DNA from: a bacterium
GTDB lineage: Bacteria > Patescibacteriota > Minisyncoccia > Moranbacterales > GWC2-37-73
Direction of reading: 5' to 3'
DNA: 48,174 nucleotides
NCBI GenBank assembly: GCA_003251635.1
Contig: QKEW01000014.1
Span: forward strand, 1-48,174
Shown piece after piece: positions 5,083-14,834 of this stretch; within the stretch, counting starts at the first letter, position 1, and each line of letters opens with the position of its first letter. A model generated the notes under the pieces. The model ran no database searches. It had not been told where the DNA came from and worked only from the letters and a program-made list of their open reading frames with translations. Both the position numbers and the translations under genes were made by a program.

Positions 5083-8000
5083 TTAAACTTGATCCAAATC
5101 AGTTTCTGTTCCACTCTTAGCATCAATTTCTGAACTTTCATTTTCATCTTCGTCTTCACTCACCAAGGAGCCAACCAATTCAACATCCAAACAAAGACCT
5201 TTTAATTCATTGACCAATACATGAAATGAGGCTGGAATGTTCGGACTTTTTATAGTTTCACCTTTAATAATCGATTCATAAGCTTTAGATCGTCCCAAAA
5301 CATCATCCGATTTGATAGTCAACATTTCTTGCAAGGTATAGGCAGCCCCATAACCTTCCAAGGCCCAAACTTCCATTTCTCCAAAACGCTGTCCTCCAAA
5401 TTGAGCTTTTCCTCCCAAAGGCTGTTGGGTTATCAAAGAGTATGGACCAATTGAACGCATGTGCAGTTTGTCTTCCACCAAGTGATTAAGCTTCATGATG
5501 TACATGACTCCAACCGTCACGTCATTGTCAAAGTATTCTCCAGTTCTTCCATCAATCAAACGTGATTTTCCAGTTTCAGAAAGTCCGGCTTTTTTCAATT
5601 CAGCCTTAATATCAGTCTCATCCACTCCATCTAAAGCAGGGGTAGCTGCCTTATAACCTAAGTGCAGTGCCGCCCAACCCAAATGAGTTTCCAAGATCTG
5701 TCCGATATTCATACGACTAGCCACACCCAAAGGATTTAGAACAACATCCACTGGTCTTCCGTCTGGCAGATAGGGCATGTCTTCCACTGGAGCAATTCGA
5801 GAAATAACACCTTTATTTCCATGACGTCCAGCCAACTTATCACCAACTGAAATTTTTCGAAGTTGCGCAATAGAAACCTGAATTTGCTTAATCACTCCAG
5901 TTGGCAGCTTATCACCTTGTTCTCGAGAAAGAATCTTGATATCAACAATCTTTCCTTTTTCACCGTGAGGCAAGTAAAGTGAAGAGTCTTTAACATCCTT
6001 GGATTTTTCACCAAAAATAGCTCGAAGCAATCTTTCTTCTGGGGTCAAATCGCCCTCACCTTTCGGTGTAATTTTTCCAACCAAGATATCACCGGAAGAA
6101 ACTTCAGCTCCGATTCGGATAATTCCGGTTTCATCCAAATTCTTCAATCTATCCTCGCCGATATTTGGAATGTCCCGCGTCACCACTTCCGGTCCAAGCT
6201 TGGTGTCACGCACATCGATTGAAAAATCTTCAATGTGGATTGAACTATATCGATCTTCTTGCAAAAGTCTTTCGGAAAGGATGATAGCATCTTCAAAGTT
6301 ATAACCACTCCAAGAAACAAAAGCCACTACGGCATTTTGACCCAAAGCCAATTCTCCATTATCAGTTGCAGCTCCGTCAGCCAAAAGTTGTCCCTTTTTA
6401 ACCATCTGTCCTTTGTCCACTCGAGGCAATTGACTCATGCTAGTGAAAGCATTGGATTTTTGGAAACTCAAAAGATTGTAGTTTCGTTTGTAGAATTCCT
6501 TCTTGGAACCAGCTGGGGCCTTTTCTTTTACCACGATATGGGCTCCATCCACTTCCACCACTTCTCCGTCATTAGCTGCCAAAACTACCTGACCGCTGTC
6601 AGCCGCCGCCTTGTCTTCAATTCCGGTTCCAACAATTGGAGATTGTGGCACTATGCAAGGTACCGCTTGACGTTGCATGTTTGATCCCATCAAAGCTCGG
6701 TTGGCATCATCATTTTCAATAAACGGAATCAAGGAAGTTGCCACTGAAATACATTGCTTAGCAGAAACATCCAAATAATCCAACTTGGTTGCCTCAATCA
6801 TGCCTGGATGACCTTTGATTCTAGCTTCCACCATTTCGTCTAAAATATTTCGATCGTCATCAAGATTAACTGTAGCGTGAGCAATTGCCATACGGTCTTC
6901 CACTGTCGCATTAACGTATTCGATTTCTCCGGCAATGCAAGGTTTGACTTTGACTTGTTGGTCCTTTTTCTCCTTGGCAATCTTTTTAGCCAATTCCTCG
7001 TCAATTTTGGTTCCGATTTTAGCTCCACCCAAATCCTCATTCAAAATCCGACCAACCAGCTTTTCCTCTTTAGCTTGAACTTCTTGAACAACTTTGATGT
7101 AGGGAGTTTCCAAAAATCCGAAATCATTAACCCTGGCATAAGTCGCCATATGTCCTACCAAACCGATGTTTGGACCTTCTGGGGTTTCAATTGGACAAAT
7201 TCTTCCATAGTGAGAATAGTGAACATCACGGACTTCAAAACCAGCTCTTTCTCGAGTCAAACCGCCCGGCCCCATCGCACTAAGACGTCTCTTGTGTTCC
7301 AATTCAGCCAATGGATTCACCTGATCCATGAACTGAGAAAGTTGCGAAGAAGAGAAAAATTCTTTAATTGAAGCTGCTACCGGTCGAGAGTTTACCAATT
7401 GTCCCGGCAAAACAGTGTCCACATCGCAAGTACTCATTCGATCTTTAATGTTGCGACTCATGCGAGCCATTCCAACGCGCAATTTGTTTTGAACCAATTC
7501 GCCCACTCCACGAACACGACGATTACCCAAGTGGTCAATATCGTCCGGCAATGCTCCCGGCGTATTGTTCAATTTGATAATTTCACGAATAACCAAAATC
7601 AAATCATCCAATCGTAAAATTCGATTCTCTTCATTATCTTCACGATTAACTTCCAAACGTTGATTCAAACGATAGCGACCCACGCTACCAAAATCATATT
7701 TCTCAAAATTGAAAAACATCGAATCAATCAATTGTTTGGCATTTTCTTCCGTAGCCAAATCACCCGGACGAATTCTTTTATAGATTTCTTTGTAACCCTC
7801 ACCTTGGGTCTTGGTAATGTCTTTGGAAATCGTAGTCTCGATATAATTAACATCCCCCTTATCAATATCAACAAATTTTTGAATAATTTCCTCATCAGAA
7901 GTCATTCCGAAAGCTCGCAACAATGCTGTTACCGGAATTTTACGTTTTCGATCAATTCTTACTGAGATCACTCCATCCAAACCAGTATCAATCTCCAGCC

Positions 8001-10236: not shown

Positions 10237-10254
10237 GCGGAGAGGGAGGGATTC
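10237..10254 (+). repeat. Direct repeat of the tRNA-Ser(GCU) 3' end (att-like)
   Basis: gcggagagggagggattc, identical to 14272-14289. Confidence 0.7.
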
Positions 10255-10506: not shown

Positions 10507-11251
10507 TATACCAAGAAATTCGTGACGTAATATGAAATCTGCCCTGGTAAGGCCTGTAATAAGATATCTTGCCCGTTTCAGAGTCTTGAACAACGTTCTC
10601 AGCCCTGCGTTTATAGCCCAAAAAGACATCTTCATCCAAAGAATGAGCATAAAGCGGTCTCAACCCCTTTCCCCGATATTCGAGACTACTAAAAAGATAA
10701 GTCATAAATGAGCCGGTAAATCGATACCGACGAACACAATCTTCAAGTTGATCATCCAGTTCCGATTCATATCCTTTCCAAGAAAAAAGACATGGAAAAC
10801 TTTCGACCCAGTAACCGACGGTAAATTTAAGAAGTGAAATTATTTCTTTTTTAGCTGACAAATTTCCTTTTTGGGAAATCCTTACCAGAGCAATGCTAAT
10901 GTTATTTCGCAATTTTCTATCTTCATGATCTTGGGGAGATATGAAAACATATCTTTTGTCTTTGTATTTCTTGAGAACTAAATTTACTTCCTTTTTACTG
11001 CGATACCATTTCATAGCTTTCCATTGCTGTTTGGTTTTGCTTCGTCTTGAAATCCATTTTCTTTGAAACTCTCGATCTAATCTGTTAACTATCTTATCCC
11101 AATTGATATCGCCAACTTCATTTTTTACGTTCTTCCAAATAAATCGATAAATACGAGGAGTATTTTTATATATCCAAGAGCTATTTATTTTCTCCGGCTG
11201 TTTTTCCAAAAGTAATGCGTTGAGTTCTTTGATAGCTTGATTGAAATCCAT
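10499..11251 (-). CDS. Hypothetical protein, helical, weakly sigma-factor-region-2-like
   Basis: 250 aa intact ORF; SAKKEIISLLKFTVGYWVES...WKGYESELDDQLEDCVRRYRFTGSFMTYLFSSLEYRGKGLRPLYAHSLDE loosely recalls sigma/HTH regulators; no firm family. Confidence 0.6.
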   Translation of the reverse strand: MDFNQAIKELNALLLEKQPEKINSSWIYKNTPRIYRFIWKNVKNEVGDINWDKIVNRLDREFQRKWISRRSKTKQQWKAMKWYRSKKEVNLVLKKYKDKRYVFISPQDHEDRKLRNNISIALVRISQKGNLSAKKEIISLLKFTVGYWVESFPCLFSWKGYESELDDQLEDCVRRYRFTGSFMTYLFSSLEYRGKGLRPLYAHSLDEDVFLGYKRRAENVVQDSETGKISYYRPYQGRFHITSRISWYNK

Positions 11252-11485: not shown

Positions 11486-11538
11486 AATGAGATGAGCATT
11501 TTGGACATCACATTAGTGCCTAAAATGCTCGTCTCATT
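11486..11538. repeat. Inverted repeat, 17-bp arms with one mismatch and a 19-nt loop
   Basis: aatgagatgagcatttt / aaaatgctcgtctcatt, between promoter and variable-protein start. Confidence 0.75.
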
Positions 11539-11589
11539 GGAGAGACAAGCCAAATCCCGAAGATCGGGAAAAACCATCAAGAAAGGAGA

Positions 11590-12453
11590 ATGACGATGAC
11601 AGAGATGATCACGTCAGGACAAGTCAAACAGTTCAGAAGGTTGGCCGAAGATGCATTGGGCGGTGAAGTTAACATCACCAAAAGAGAAGCTCAGAGGGCA
11701 CTCGGCCGTGGTAACGAAATCATGGAGGGATTTATTAATCTCATCCGCGAAAAGGCTGGAAACCCTCACAGCAGGACTTCTTCAAGCTACGATTGTCCGA
11801 AAGGATACAACGGAGCAAGGGATCTGGACGAACAGGCTACCATTTTGCGGGAGCAATATCAGTTTCCGCTCAAGCCGCTCGCCAGCGTGAAGAAACTTCC
11901 CGAAGGAGCCGAAGGATTGTGGGTTATTCCGCTCATCAAGGATATCGTGTCCTTGCAGTGTGAACATCCCTACAACTACGCCGTGGATTTTGTGCTGGAA
12001 AGGCTTGGCCGCAACCGCGAGTTCAAAAACTGGCGCCAGGGCAAGACAGGTTATGAATACCTGCGACAGAGCGAACGCACCCTCCGCCTCTGGAACCAGC
12101 TGACGTTGACACAGGGTAGCGGAGAGTTGACGCCTGTAGTTCCCGCGCAGTTCGGCAAAATGCACAGGGGTGAGAGCGTGAATTATGTGCGCGAGGACGT
12201 GCTGGATAACGAAATCCTTTTCGGCGCTTACCACGTCGGCGTAATGCTCCTGACTCATCCCGAAAGAGAACAGGAATGGGAGCAGTTACACATCGATTGT
12301 GCTGGTGACGAATGCGCTCCTGATGGCGATGGCAAGTTCGTGAACGCTCCGGTCTTCGACTGGGACGACGGTGAGCTTCACTTCGGCACCGTCTGGACGA
12401 GCGCTGTCGGCAAGCAATATGGTTCGGCGTCGGGTTTTCTTCCGCAGGATTGA
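11590..12453 (+). CDS. DGR variable (target) protein
   Basis: Shine-Dalgarno aaaggag upstream; the 3' end is the VR, which matches the TR at 12861-12990 with A-only mismatches. Confidence 0.9.
   Translation: MTMTEMITSGQVKQFRRLAEDALGGEVNITKREAQRALGRGNEIMEGFINLIREKAGNPHSRTSSSYDCPKGYNGARDLDEQATILREQYQFPLKPLASVKKLPEGAEGLWVIPLIKDIVSLQCEHPYNYAVDFVLERLGRNREFKNWRQGKTGYEYLRQSERTLRLWNQLTLTQGSGELTPVVPAQFGKMHRGESVNYVREDVLDNEILFGAYHVGVMLLTHPEREQEWEQLHIDCAGDECAPDGDGKFVNAPVFDWDDGELHFGTVWTSAVGKQYGSASGFLPQD
12318..12447 (+). repeat. DGR variable repeat (VR)
   Basis: 130 bp aligned without gaps to 12861-12990; 14 mismatches, all at adenines of the TR (A>G x11, A>C x2, A>T x1). May extend 4 nt further 5' (gcgc opposite aaaa). 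Confidence 0.93.
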
Positions 12454-12498
12454 AGCTTGAATGCTTGAAAGCTTGGCTCTCTTGTATCCTCGAAACTT

Positions 12499-12511
12499 CC
12501 GCCGAAGGCGG
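12499..12511. repeat. Short hairpin downstream of VR
   Basis: ccgcc-gaa-ggcgg about 50 bp after the VR 3' end. Confidence 0.5.
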
Positions 12512-12523
12512 TCGATTCATCCG

Positions 12524-12561
12524 GGAGCTATTTCACTTCTATAGTGAGTAGCTCCTTTTTT
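12524..12561 (+). terminator. Intrinsic terminator after the variable-protein gene
   Basis: ggagcta..cac..gtg..tagctcc followed by T6. Confidence 0.75.
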
Positions 12562-12860
12562 CATTTCCATTTACCCAAATAATATCTTTTGCTATACTTT
12601 TAATTGAGCAGGCTAATGAACAGTTGTTCACGGATAGCTGTCGCCTTCTCTTCCTTCAAGGAAAATAACCAGAGTTTTTTCGGCTACGGCTGAAAAAAGC
12701 GTGTTATCTTGATGAGAAACTGCTTGCTTTTGTCTGGCGGAGATGTTCCGATTTTATATATCGAACTGCTCCCAAATAAAATTCAGGAAAGAGAGAATAT
12801 AATCCGCTTTTGCGGAAGTAAATCTCAATTTCCGGTGATTACGGATGGACAGAAGCAAAA

Positions 12861-12990
12861 TCCTGATGGCGATGGCAAGTTCGTGAACGCTCCGATCTTC
12901 AACTGGAACGACGGTAAGCTTCACTTCAACACCAACTGGACGAACAATGTCAACAAGCAATATGGTTCGGCGTCGGGTTTTCTTCCGAAG
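12861..12990 (+). ncRNA. DGR template repeat (TR)
   Basis: Non-coding copy of the VR with adenine-rich codons (AAC/AAT/AAG) at every variable site; intact TR-encoded peptide ...FNWNDGKLHFNTNWTNNVNKQYGSASGFLPK. Confidence 0.93.
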
Positions 12991-13002
12991 TTTCTCCTCA
13001 TA

Positions 13003-13030
13003 AAAAGACATCCTTTTACGGATGTCTTTT
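13003..13030. terminator. Bidirectional-type intrinsic terminator between TR (+) and avd (-)
   Basis: AAAAGACATCC-ttttac-GGATGTCTTTT, perfect 11-bp arms. Confidence 0.7.
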
Positions 13031-13395: not shown

Positions 13396-13698
13396 ATGAA
13401 TAATTACAATAACGTATTTGAAAAAATAATTTCGCTGGAAAATCTATTCTTAGCTTGGGACAGTTTCAAAAAAGGAAAACTCGGAAAGAAAGACGTCCAA
13501 AAATTCGAATGGAAATTGGAGCAAAATATTTTTCAACTGCATGAGGAATTAAGGAGGTGGACGTATAATCATGGCGCATATTCTTCTTTTTACATTCAAG
13601 ATCCCAAGCAACGCCATATCCACAAAGCCAAAGTCAGGGACAGAATATTGCATCATGCCATTTTCTCTATTCTTAATCCAATCTTTGAAAAGAGATAA
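13396..13698 (+). pseudogene. DGR reverse transcriptase, N-terminal fragment only
   Basis: MNNYNNVFEKIISLENLFLAWDSFKKGKLGKKDVQKFEWKLEQNIFQLHEELRRWTY..YSSFYIQDPKQRHIHKAKVRDRILHHAIFSILNPIFEK then stop; the catalytic YxDD region is absent. Confidence 0.85.
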
Positions 13699-14161
13699 GA
13701 TTGTCCGAGAGAATAAGGAGTTCGCCTTTACCAAACTGTTTACCTGCGGCTATTGCGGATCAGGAATATCCGCTGAAGAAAAATATAAACAACTGAAAGA
13801 CGGAACTCATGCCCGATATATCTACTATTCCTGCTCGAGAGCAAGAGATCGGCATTGTAAAAATAAATATATACGAGAAGAAGAATTAATTACTGAGCTC
13901 TTAAAGATAATCGACCAAATGAATATTAATGAACTGGGTATGAGGCAAAAACTGGAAGACGAAATCAATAGATTTAATATCTTCCAGAAATCAGTAGTGG
14001 GAGAAAAACATAAAATCCAAAACACCAAAGATACAGATATTCGAAATTATGCCAAATACCTGCTCAAAGAGGGGTCAGTGTCAGAGAAAAGAGAACTTCT
14101 CGGAAACTTAAGATCAAGAATAATCTACAAAGACAAAAAACTTGAATTGGTGAAAGAATAG
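13691..14161 (+). pseudogene. Large serine recombinase, C-terminal remnant (zinc-ribbon and coiled-coil region)
   Basis: Frame of ORF 13571-14161: FAFTKLFTCGYCGSGISAEEKYK...RYIYYSCSRARDRHCKNKYIREEELITELLKII; the N-terminal catalytic domain is absent. Confidence 0.8.
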
Positions 14162-14199: not shown

Positions 14200-14272
14200 T
14201 TCAATTTTTTAGGCTCTCGAGTCGCCATGTTATCTCGACTACATGGGTTCGCTCGATAAAAAATTGTCGATG

Positions 14273-14359
14273 CGGAGAGGGAGGGATTCGAACCCTCGAG
14301 GGGTTTTATCCCCTGGCACGTTAGCAGTGTGCTGGTTTTAGCCACTCACCCACCTCTCC
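14273..14359 (-). tRNA. tRNA-Ser(GCU)
   Basis: GGAGAGG/CCTCTCC acceptor, long variable arm, CTGCTAA anticodon loop, TTCGAAT T-loop, G discriminator. Confidence 0.9.
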
Positions 14360-14436
14360 AAATTAACTTGTAACTAACAACAACTAACTAAAAACTTTTT
14401 TCATCTTAACAAATATTTTCTTATCGGCAAATCAGG

Positions 14437-14492
14437 CGGAAGTGAGAGGATTCGAACCTCTGGTACCCTTTCGGGCACGACAGTTTTTCGCG
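14437..14492 (-). tRNA. 3' half of a disrupted tRNA-Ser
   Basis: ...GCGAAAAACTGTCGTGCCCGAAAGGGTACCAGAGGTTCGAATCCTCTCACTTCC(G); its acceptor strand pairs perfectly with the 5' half at 14746-14752. Confidence 0.7.
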
Positions 14493-14493
14493 A

Positions 14494-14717: not shown

Positions 14718-14752
14718 CAAGCTGTTGCCTTCAACCACTCGGCCACACTTCC
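14718..14752 (-). tRNA. 5' half of a disrupted tRNA-Ser
   Basis: GGAAGTGTGGCCGAGTGGTTGAAGGCAACAGCTTG: acceptor strand, D-arm and 5' side of anticodon stem, then departs from tRNA sequence. Confidence 0.7.
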
Positions 14753-14834
14753 AAAATTTTCTTTCCAACTTTTCCCATCCTATCATCAAAATTTCCCTTT
14801 GTAAATGCCGAAATTCACCAATTTCGCGAGCCCA

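Follow-up and report, generated by a model that had tools for sequence, protein, structure and literature searches.

The window analyzed here, a stretch of 48,174 nucleotides, carries what is left of a diversity-generating retroelement (DGR) of the Patescibacteria type; its Avd gene is bona fide, and the element is not a working one. It retains a template repeat (TR) and variable repeat (VR) pair, Avd and a conserved, structured leader RNA; its reverse transcriptase (RT) is truncated, and no other RT is present in the genome. The locus as a whole is very probably a once-working DGR that lost its RT by deletion, leaving the target protein frozen in its last variant.

Table 1. Features of the DGR remnant and its surroundings in window coordinates, and (GA)n tracts in related loci (last two rows).
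Feature	Coordinates	Strand	Evidence or remark
Target paralogue, 267 aa	8871-9674	+	45% identical to target; without TR-like VR
Exact copy of 18-bp tRNA-Ser 3' end, possible att repeat (left)	10237-10254	.	
Target open reading frame (ORF), 287 aa	11590-12453	+	VR is the final coding stretch; homologs in G068, G098, G149, G151, G185
VR	12318-12447	+	Differs from TR at 14 sites, each an adenine in TR
Conserved structured RNA (TR leader), ends against TR	12596-12860	+	Covariation, fold, covariance model
Leader strand TGATGAGAAACT, proposed primer strand	12710-12721	+	Complementary to TR 3' junction
Closing helix, 5' strand	12724-12735	+	Pairs with 12847-12858; helix 5: 98.8% of cells paired, double changes in 7 of 12 pairs
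Closing helix, 3' strand, directly before TR	12847-12858	+	Pairs with 12724-12735
TR	12861-12990	+	Alignment to VR
TR 3' junction AGTTTCTCCTCA	12989-13000	+	Partner of 12710-12721
Intrinsic terminator hairpin right after TR	13005-13028	+	Also seen in related loci (27 of 34, against 1-5 when shuffled)
Avd accessory protein, 116 aa	13036-13386	-	NF033474, 82.2 bits (cut-off 80); PF22296, 63.6 bits (cut-off 40); phrog_3206
DGR RT N-terminal fragment, homologous residues 1-99 of ~349	13396-13698	+	Homology to intact RTs
Junction of RT and recombinase fragments	13685-13691	+	RT homology stops and recombinase homology starts at the same point
Serine recombinase, C-terminal 156 aa, zinc ribbon PF13408, without N-terminus	13691-14161	+	97% identical to G039
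tRNA-Ser (GCT), likely integration site of recombinase element	14272-14359	-	
18-bp tRNA-Ser 3' end, possible att repeat (right)	14272-14289	.	
(GA)n in or at start of DGR RT genes, mostly out of frame	L061:5973-5988, L065:1798-1813, L071:7262-7277, L079:4290-4321, L083:2293-2312		
(GA)n in or at start of DGR RT genes, mostly out of frame	L089:6815-6840, L093:6387-6402, L102:5930-5979, L103:3893-3928, L072:7495-7516		

TR and VR differ at adenines alone

A sequence-only reading of this DNA had claimed a gap-free 130-bp match at an offset of 543. Base-by-base recomputation places the two copies exactly at the TR and VR positions in Table 1, with divergence setting in immediately on both sides. 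The recount reproduced the 14 mismatches of that reading, all at A of the TR copy (11 A>G, 2 A>C and 1 A>T). The TR consists of 34 A and 96 non-A positions, and pairwise re-alignment gave no non-A mismatch (0 of 96), as claimed. The hypergeometric probability that 14 randomly placed mismatches all fall on A is 6.4 × 10−10, making the earlier figure of about 10−8 conservative. Ten VR codons differ and seven of these are AAC or AAT, in agreement with the proposed ten or so altered residues, and the target ORF ends with the VR, as had been stated. The preponderance of G is typical, the ratio of A>G, A>C and A>T being 379:99:106 across 34 related TR/VR pairs. No second VR or further TR copy was found; the TR matches only the VR elsewhere in the whole genome.

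Ordinary duplication with drift, and no DGR at all, would explain the repeat itself and nothing more. It is refuted by the A-only pattern (14 of 14 changes, P = 6 × 10−10), and with Avd and an RT fragment alongside, and the same architecture in dozens of loci, its probability is negligible. Attribution of the pattern to DGR mutagenic retrohoming, as first proposed, is supported by the A-only divergence, an Avd above cut-off, the RT N-terminus and intact homologous cassettes in relatives. The limit to this claim lies in two features that the sequence-only reading could not see, namely an RT truncated at residue ~99 and a genome without an RT. The locus thus combines A-confined TR/VR divergence, a VR that forms the 3' end of its target gene and Avd with an incomplete RT, and the A-only signature is therefore a record of past activity, not proof of a working element.

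The target ORF had no match in Pfam, NCBIfam or PHROGs, and a PDB sequence search gave no usable match. A C-type lectin-like fold was sought in its AlphaFold model, which, at a mean pLDDT of 41, is too low in confidence to model the fold. The paralogue of the target adjoins rpoB, outside the cassette, and its 3' end is not TR-like. Upstream of the target ORF, a 22-bp inverted repeat and the sequence downstream of it (11486-11573) are 80% conserved upstream of the homologous target in relative G098.

Truncation of the reverse transcriptase

The RT fragment is 79% and 77% identical to the intact 349-aa RTs of relatives G028 and G045, respectively. Both relatives share the layout target-TR-Avd(-)-RT(+), and their TR/VR mismatches are at A in 17 of 17 and 15 of 17 cases, respectively. 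The Pfam catalytic region spans residues 71-280 of the G028 RT and is almost entirely absent from the window RT; a full-length relative RT aligns to the window genome at residues 1-99 alone. A search for an RT that could act in trans gave no RVT_1 match in the host's own genome (906,704 bases, 99.89% complete, an 18-contig draft), while the same model found matches in 86 of 190 relatives. Because a complete DGR-type RT is missing, we class the element as an inactivated DGR remnant, and not as a working DGR.

Mobilization of the cassette by the RT of another element or of a co-resident genome is very unlikely. Avd, TR and leader are intact, and several relatives encode more than one DGR RT; against this, the window's own genome is without an RT, and viral contigs scanned with the target protein, a scan that finds close relatives only, encoded no relative of it.

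The recombinase fragment that follows the RT fragment is 81% identical to the intact 449-aa recombinase of G037. The RT loss is most simply explained by a deletion that ran from the RT gene into the recombinase gene beside tRNA-Ser(GCT); it would have fused the first 99 RT codons to the tail of the neighboring serine recombinase gene and taken out the catalytic region. What remains is the target ORF with the TR, the leader RNA and Avd, so that the protein would be frozen in its last variant. The same join might be read as a reversible on/off switch for the RT, given its precise breakpoint and the use of tRNA-Ser sites by this recombinase family. We judge this extremely unlikely: the genome contains neither the N-terminal part of the recombinase nor the C-terminal part of the RT, so that nothing is left for switching back.

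We infer that the RT deletion is fixed in the population, although it could be a single-strain variant. A related alternative is that only a minority of cells have the deletion, or that it was created by assembly, and that most cells carry an intact RT and a live DGR. The genome is a draft, and the absence of TR/VR drift resembles that of intact DGRs. We nevertheless consider a live DGR unlikely, as the few bases shared at the junction would not suffice for a typical k-mer join, and no leftover RT or recombinase N-terminus occurs anywhere in this nearly complete genome. Furthermore, the same kind of RT truncation arose independently in G153.

Relatives that share the target family or the leader form a decay series. 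G028 and G045 are intact. In the window and in G153 the RT is truncated; that of G153 (L059:7028-7444) is cut at residue 139 and gives no RVT_1 match, and 18 of its 20 TR/VR differences are at A. G068 retains the target and an Avd fragment with no RT, and its drifted TR shows 22 differences, 12 at A and 10 elsewhere. In G098 the target remains with scraps only of leader and TR. Set against the drifted TR of G068, the 14 of 14 A-only changes in the window argue for recent RT loss. Non-A mismatch rates are alike, however, for intact (2.3%), broken-RT (2.0%) and repeat-switched (1.3%) loci, and TR/VR purity alone therefore gives no close date for the loss.

Possible integration at tRNA-Ser

Related recombinases in G037 and G039 likewise lie at a tRNA-Ser 3' end, with similar flanks. 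Together with the 18-bp repeat on the left (Table 1), this raises the possibility that the cassette was cargo of an integrative element of ~4 kb. The recombinase lacks its N-terminal part, and the att assignment is supported by a single 18-bp repeat pair. As no att repeats were found near the related recombinases in the sequence stretches examined of G037, G039 and G010, carriage of the cassette in a recombinase element at tRNA-Ser remains a suggestion. Two further pieces, 14436-14493 and 14722-14768, resemble the 3' and 5' parts of another tRNA-Ser and flank an intact tRNA-Ser(TGA); ARAGORN called neither of them.

A structured leader RNA upstream of TR

The ~260 nt upstream of the TR are conserved across families. 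Eight loci, the window included, were aligned (A1), and a covariance model of the patescibacterial TR-leader RNA was built from this alignment (R1). In the 57-pair A1 fold, 93.0% of cells are paired, compared to 75.9% in shuffles, and 33 pairs show changes on both sides, compared to 8-13 when the fold is slid. The covariation score is 0.542, against 0.243 for shuffled and at most 0.157 for slid versions. Since a single MAFFT alignment of all the other leaders was poor, these were aligned by subgroup; two such subgroups, of 9 and 10 loci and each folded independently of A1, gave a similar signal (0.430 and 0.738). G-U cells exceed A-C cells in all three sets (71:9, 94:6 and 52:5), which places the leader RNA on the TR strand. 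The folding z-score of the window leader is -4.5. The closing helix reaches the first base of the TR, or stops a few bases short of it, in all three sets. The window, itself among the eight model-building sequences, thus has a covarying fold on the TR strand that ends against the TR.

Model R1 matched 23 further divergent-layout DGR loci at full length (E = 1 × 10−17 to 0.002), with most matches ending within ~10 bases of the TR. No convincing match was obtained in 11 co-oriented-type DGR loci or in four homologues of the target that have no DGR, and an Rfam search of the leader returned no family at a threshold as loose as E ≤ 1. Across 190 genomes the model gave 36 matches in 30 genomes, of which 33, by our count, lie beside Avd or RT genes or DGR remnants.

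Immediately downstream, an intrinsic terminator begins 4-21 nt past the TR in most related loci (Table 1), and the TR RNA thus probably ends there, with its folded part upstream. The polarity of the pairing between the proposed primer strand of the leader and the TR 3' junction fits priming of synthesis into the TR. Among ten loci of the window's group, own pairs beat permuted pairs (10/20,000, or 72/20,000 without a close relative). Pooling all loci gave 8/5,000, with separate support from the window's group alone. We infer from these patterns that the leader may act as an RT-recruiting and priming scaffold, replacing a 3' spacer. In the working state, a standalone TR RNA would have consisted of the folded leader, the TR and the terminator; an RT-Avd complex would have copied it with errors at adenines, and the cDNA would have taken the place of the VR that ends the target gene.

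A cis-regulatory RNA, such as an attenuator, would also fit an intergenic leader with terminators nearby. This reading is improbable, since the leader directly abuts the TR in loci of many families, what lies downstream of it is the TR and a terminator and not a gene, and nearly all genome-wide matches are at DGR genes or remnants.

The proposed scaffold role invites comparison with Bordetella phage BPP-1. According to a published account (PMC12875486, introduction), a folded spacer 3' of the TR recruits bRT-Avd and primes cDNA in the BPP-1 DGR, in which avd and the TR share a strand. The window element resembles that DGR in its TR, VR, Avd and mutagenic retrohoming at A, and in having a folded RNA adjoining the TR for which recruitment and priming of the RT are expected. 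Unlike in the BPP-1 arrangement so described, the folded RNA of the window is 5' of the TR, a terminator follows the TR and Avd is on the other strand. The window shows no structured 3' spacer of the BPP-1 type; the ~45 nt from the TR to the Avd stop are filled by the terminator.

(GA)n tracts in related RT genes

A number of related RTs are disrupted, and in three of these the break falls at a (GA)8 tract that shortly precedes the GLPxGNxTSQ motif. When 190 genomes were searched blindly for (GA)8GT, 27 sites were found, 14 of which are in DGR RT genes, which by our estimate make up ~0.1% of the sequence searched. G042 supplies one more RT tract, for a total of 15; carriers of RT tracts include G124, G053, G101, G021 and G155. 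The frame is kept in three of the 15, namely the two G155 loci and G108:C84, and lost in 12, where free length drift would place one third in frame; frame calls for tracts at the 5' end depend on our choice of start codon. Non-A sites were changed at 9 of 681 positions in out-of-frame loci and at 37 of 1,584 in intact loci, and this equal purity is as expected if the switch is reversible. The tracts thus suggest an apparent phase variation of the DGR mutator in these relatives. The window itself is free of these tracts. None of the papers searched links DGRs with slipped-strand events.

The same tracts occur at L115:1499-1516, within a type I restriction specificity gene (PF01420), and at L112:1489-1516, within a pilin-like gene; genes of both kinds are classical phase-variable genes. 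A recurring (GA)n follows the common sequence AAAAAATGTTCCTT...TTTTGGCTATTTAC in L123, L124, L132 and L134 (G089, G131, G128 and G106, respectively).

Relation to known DGRs and significance

The window element is similar to the Patescibacteria/CPR DGRs of clade 2, as described by Roux et al. (2021; PMC8144416), in its host group, its domainless target and its A-only TR/VR divergence. One homologous locus, L058, belongs to a Candidatus Moraniibacteriota genome in the order of the window host; G068 falls in that order too, and the host is thus very probably a patescibacterium. Unlike these clade 2 elements, whose activity is reported as below average, the window has a truncated RT. A search of the main text of PMC8144416 for selected terms brought up neither a leader RNA nor a secondary structure.

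Inactivated DGRs with A-only VR/TR changes and an RT truncated by mutation are already known; Schillinger et al. (2012; PMC3521204, section 8 and Fig. 4) read such cases as very recent inactivation. The window, with a truncated RT and TR/VR changes at A alone, is a further example. It differs from those cases in that its RT was lost by deletion into a serine recombinase gene, within a graded decay series. The 5' covarying leader RNA and the RT (GA)n tracts, both findings of sequence analysis, look new.

Other DGR layouts were observed among the relatives. In a second type (L097, L100, L101, L108 and L096), Avd, TR and RT are co-oriented and follow in that order, with the TR 40-90 nt before the RT match in most and ~480 nt before it in L096. 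In L071, one TR (6192-6305) is accompanied by two VRs (5641-5754 and 10828-10941), one of them ~4.5 kb away and inverted.

Taken jointly, a 5' RT-recruiting scaffold, leader-strand priming at the TR 3' junction and phase-variable (GA)n RTs would make a mutator that is on in some cells, with the window, its target frozen, as an end state. We put this combined picture forward tentatively, at somewhat under an even chance. DGRs are mutators kept by organisms with very small genomes, and how they are restrained matters. A conserved 5' scaffold speaks to how DGR RNAs are organized beyond one well-studied phage system. It also defines what would have to be cloned to obtain a working patescibacterial DGR, and the RNA model helps to find such elements. 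Contingency repeats in RT genes, together with enzyme-less loci that keep an open, matured target, suggest bursts of mutator activity followed by silencing.
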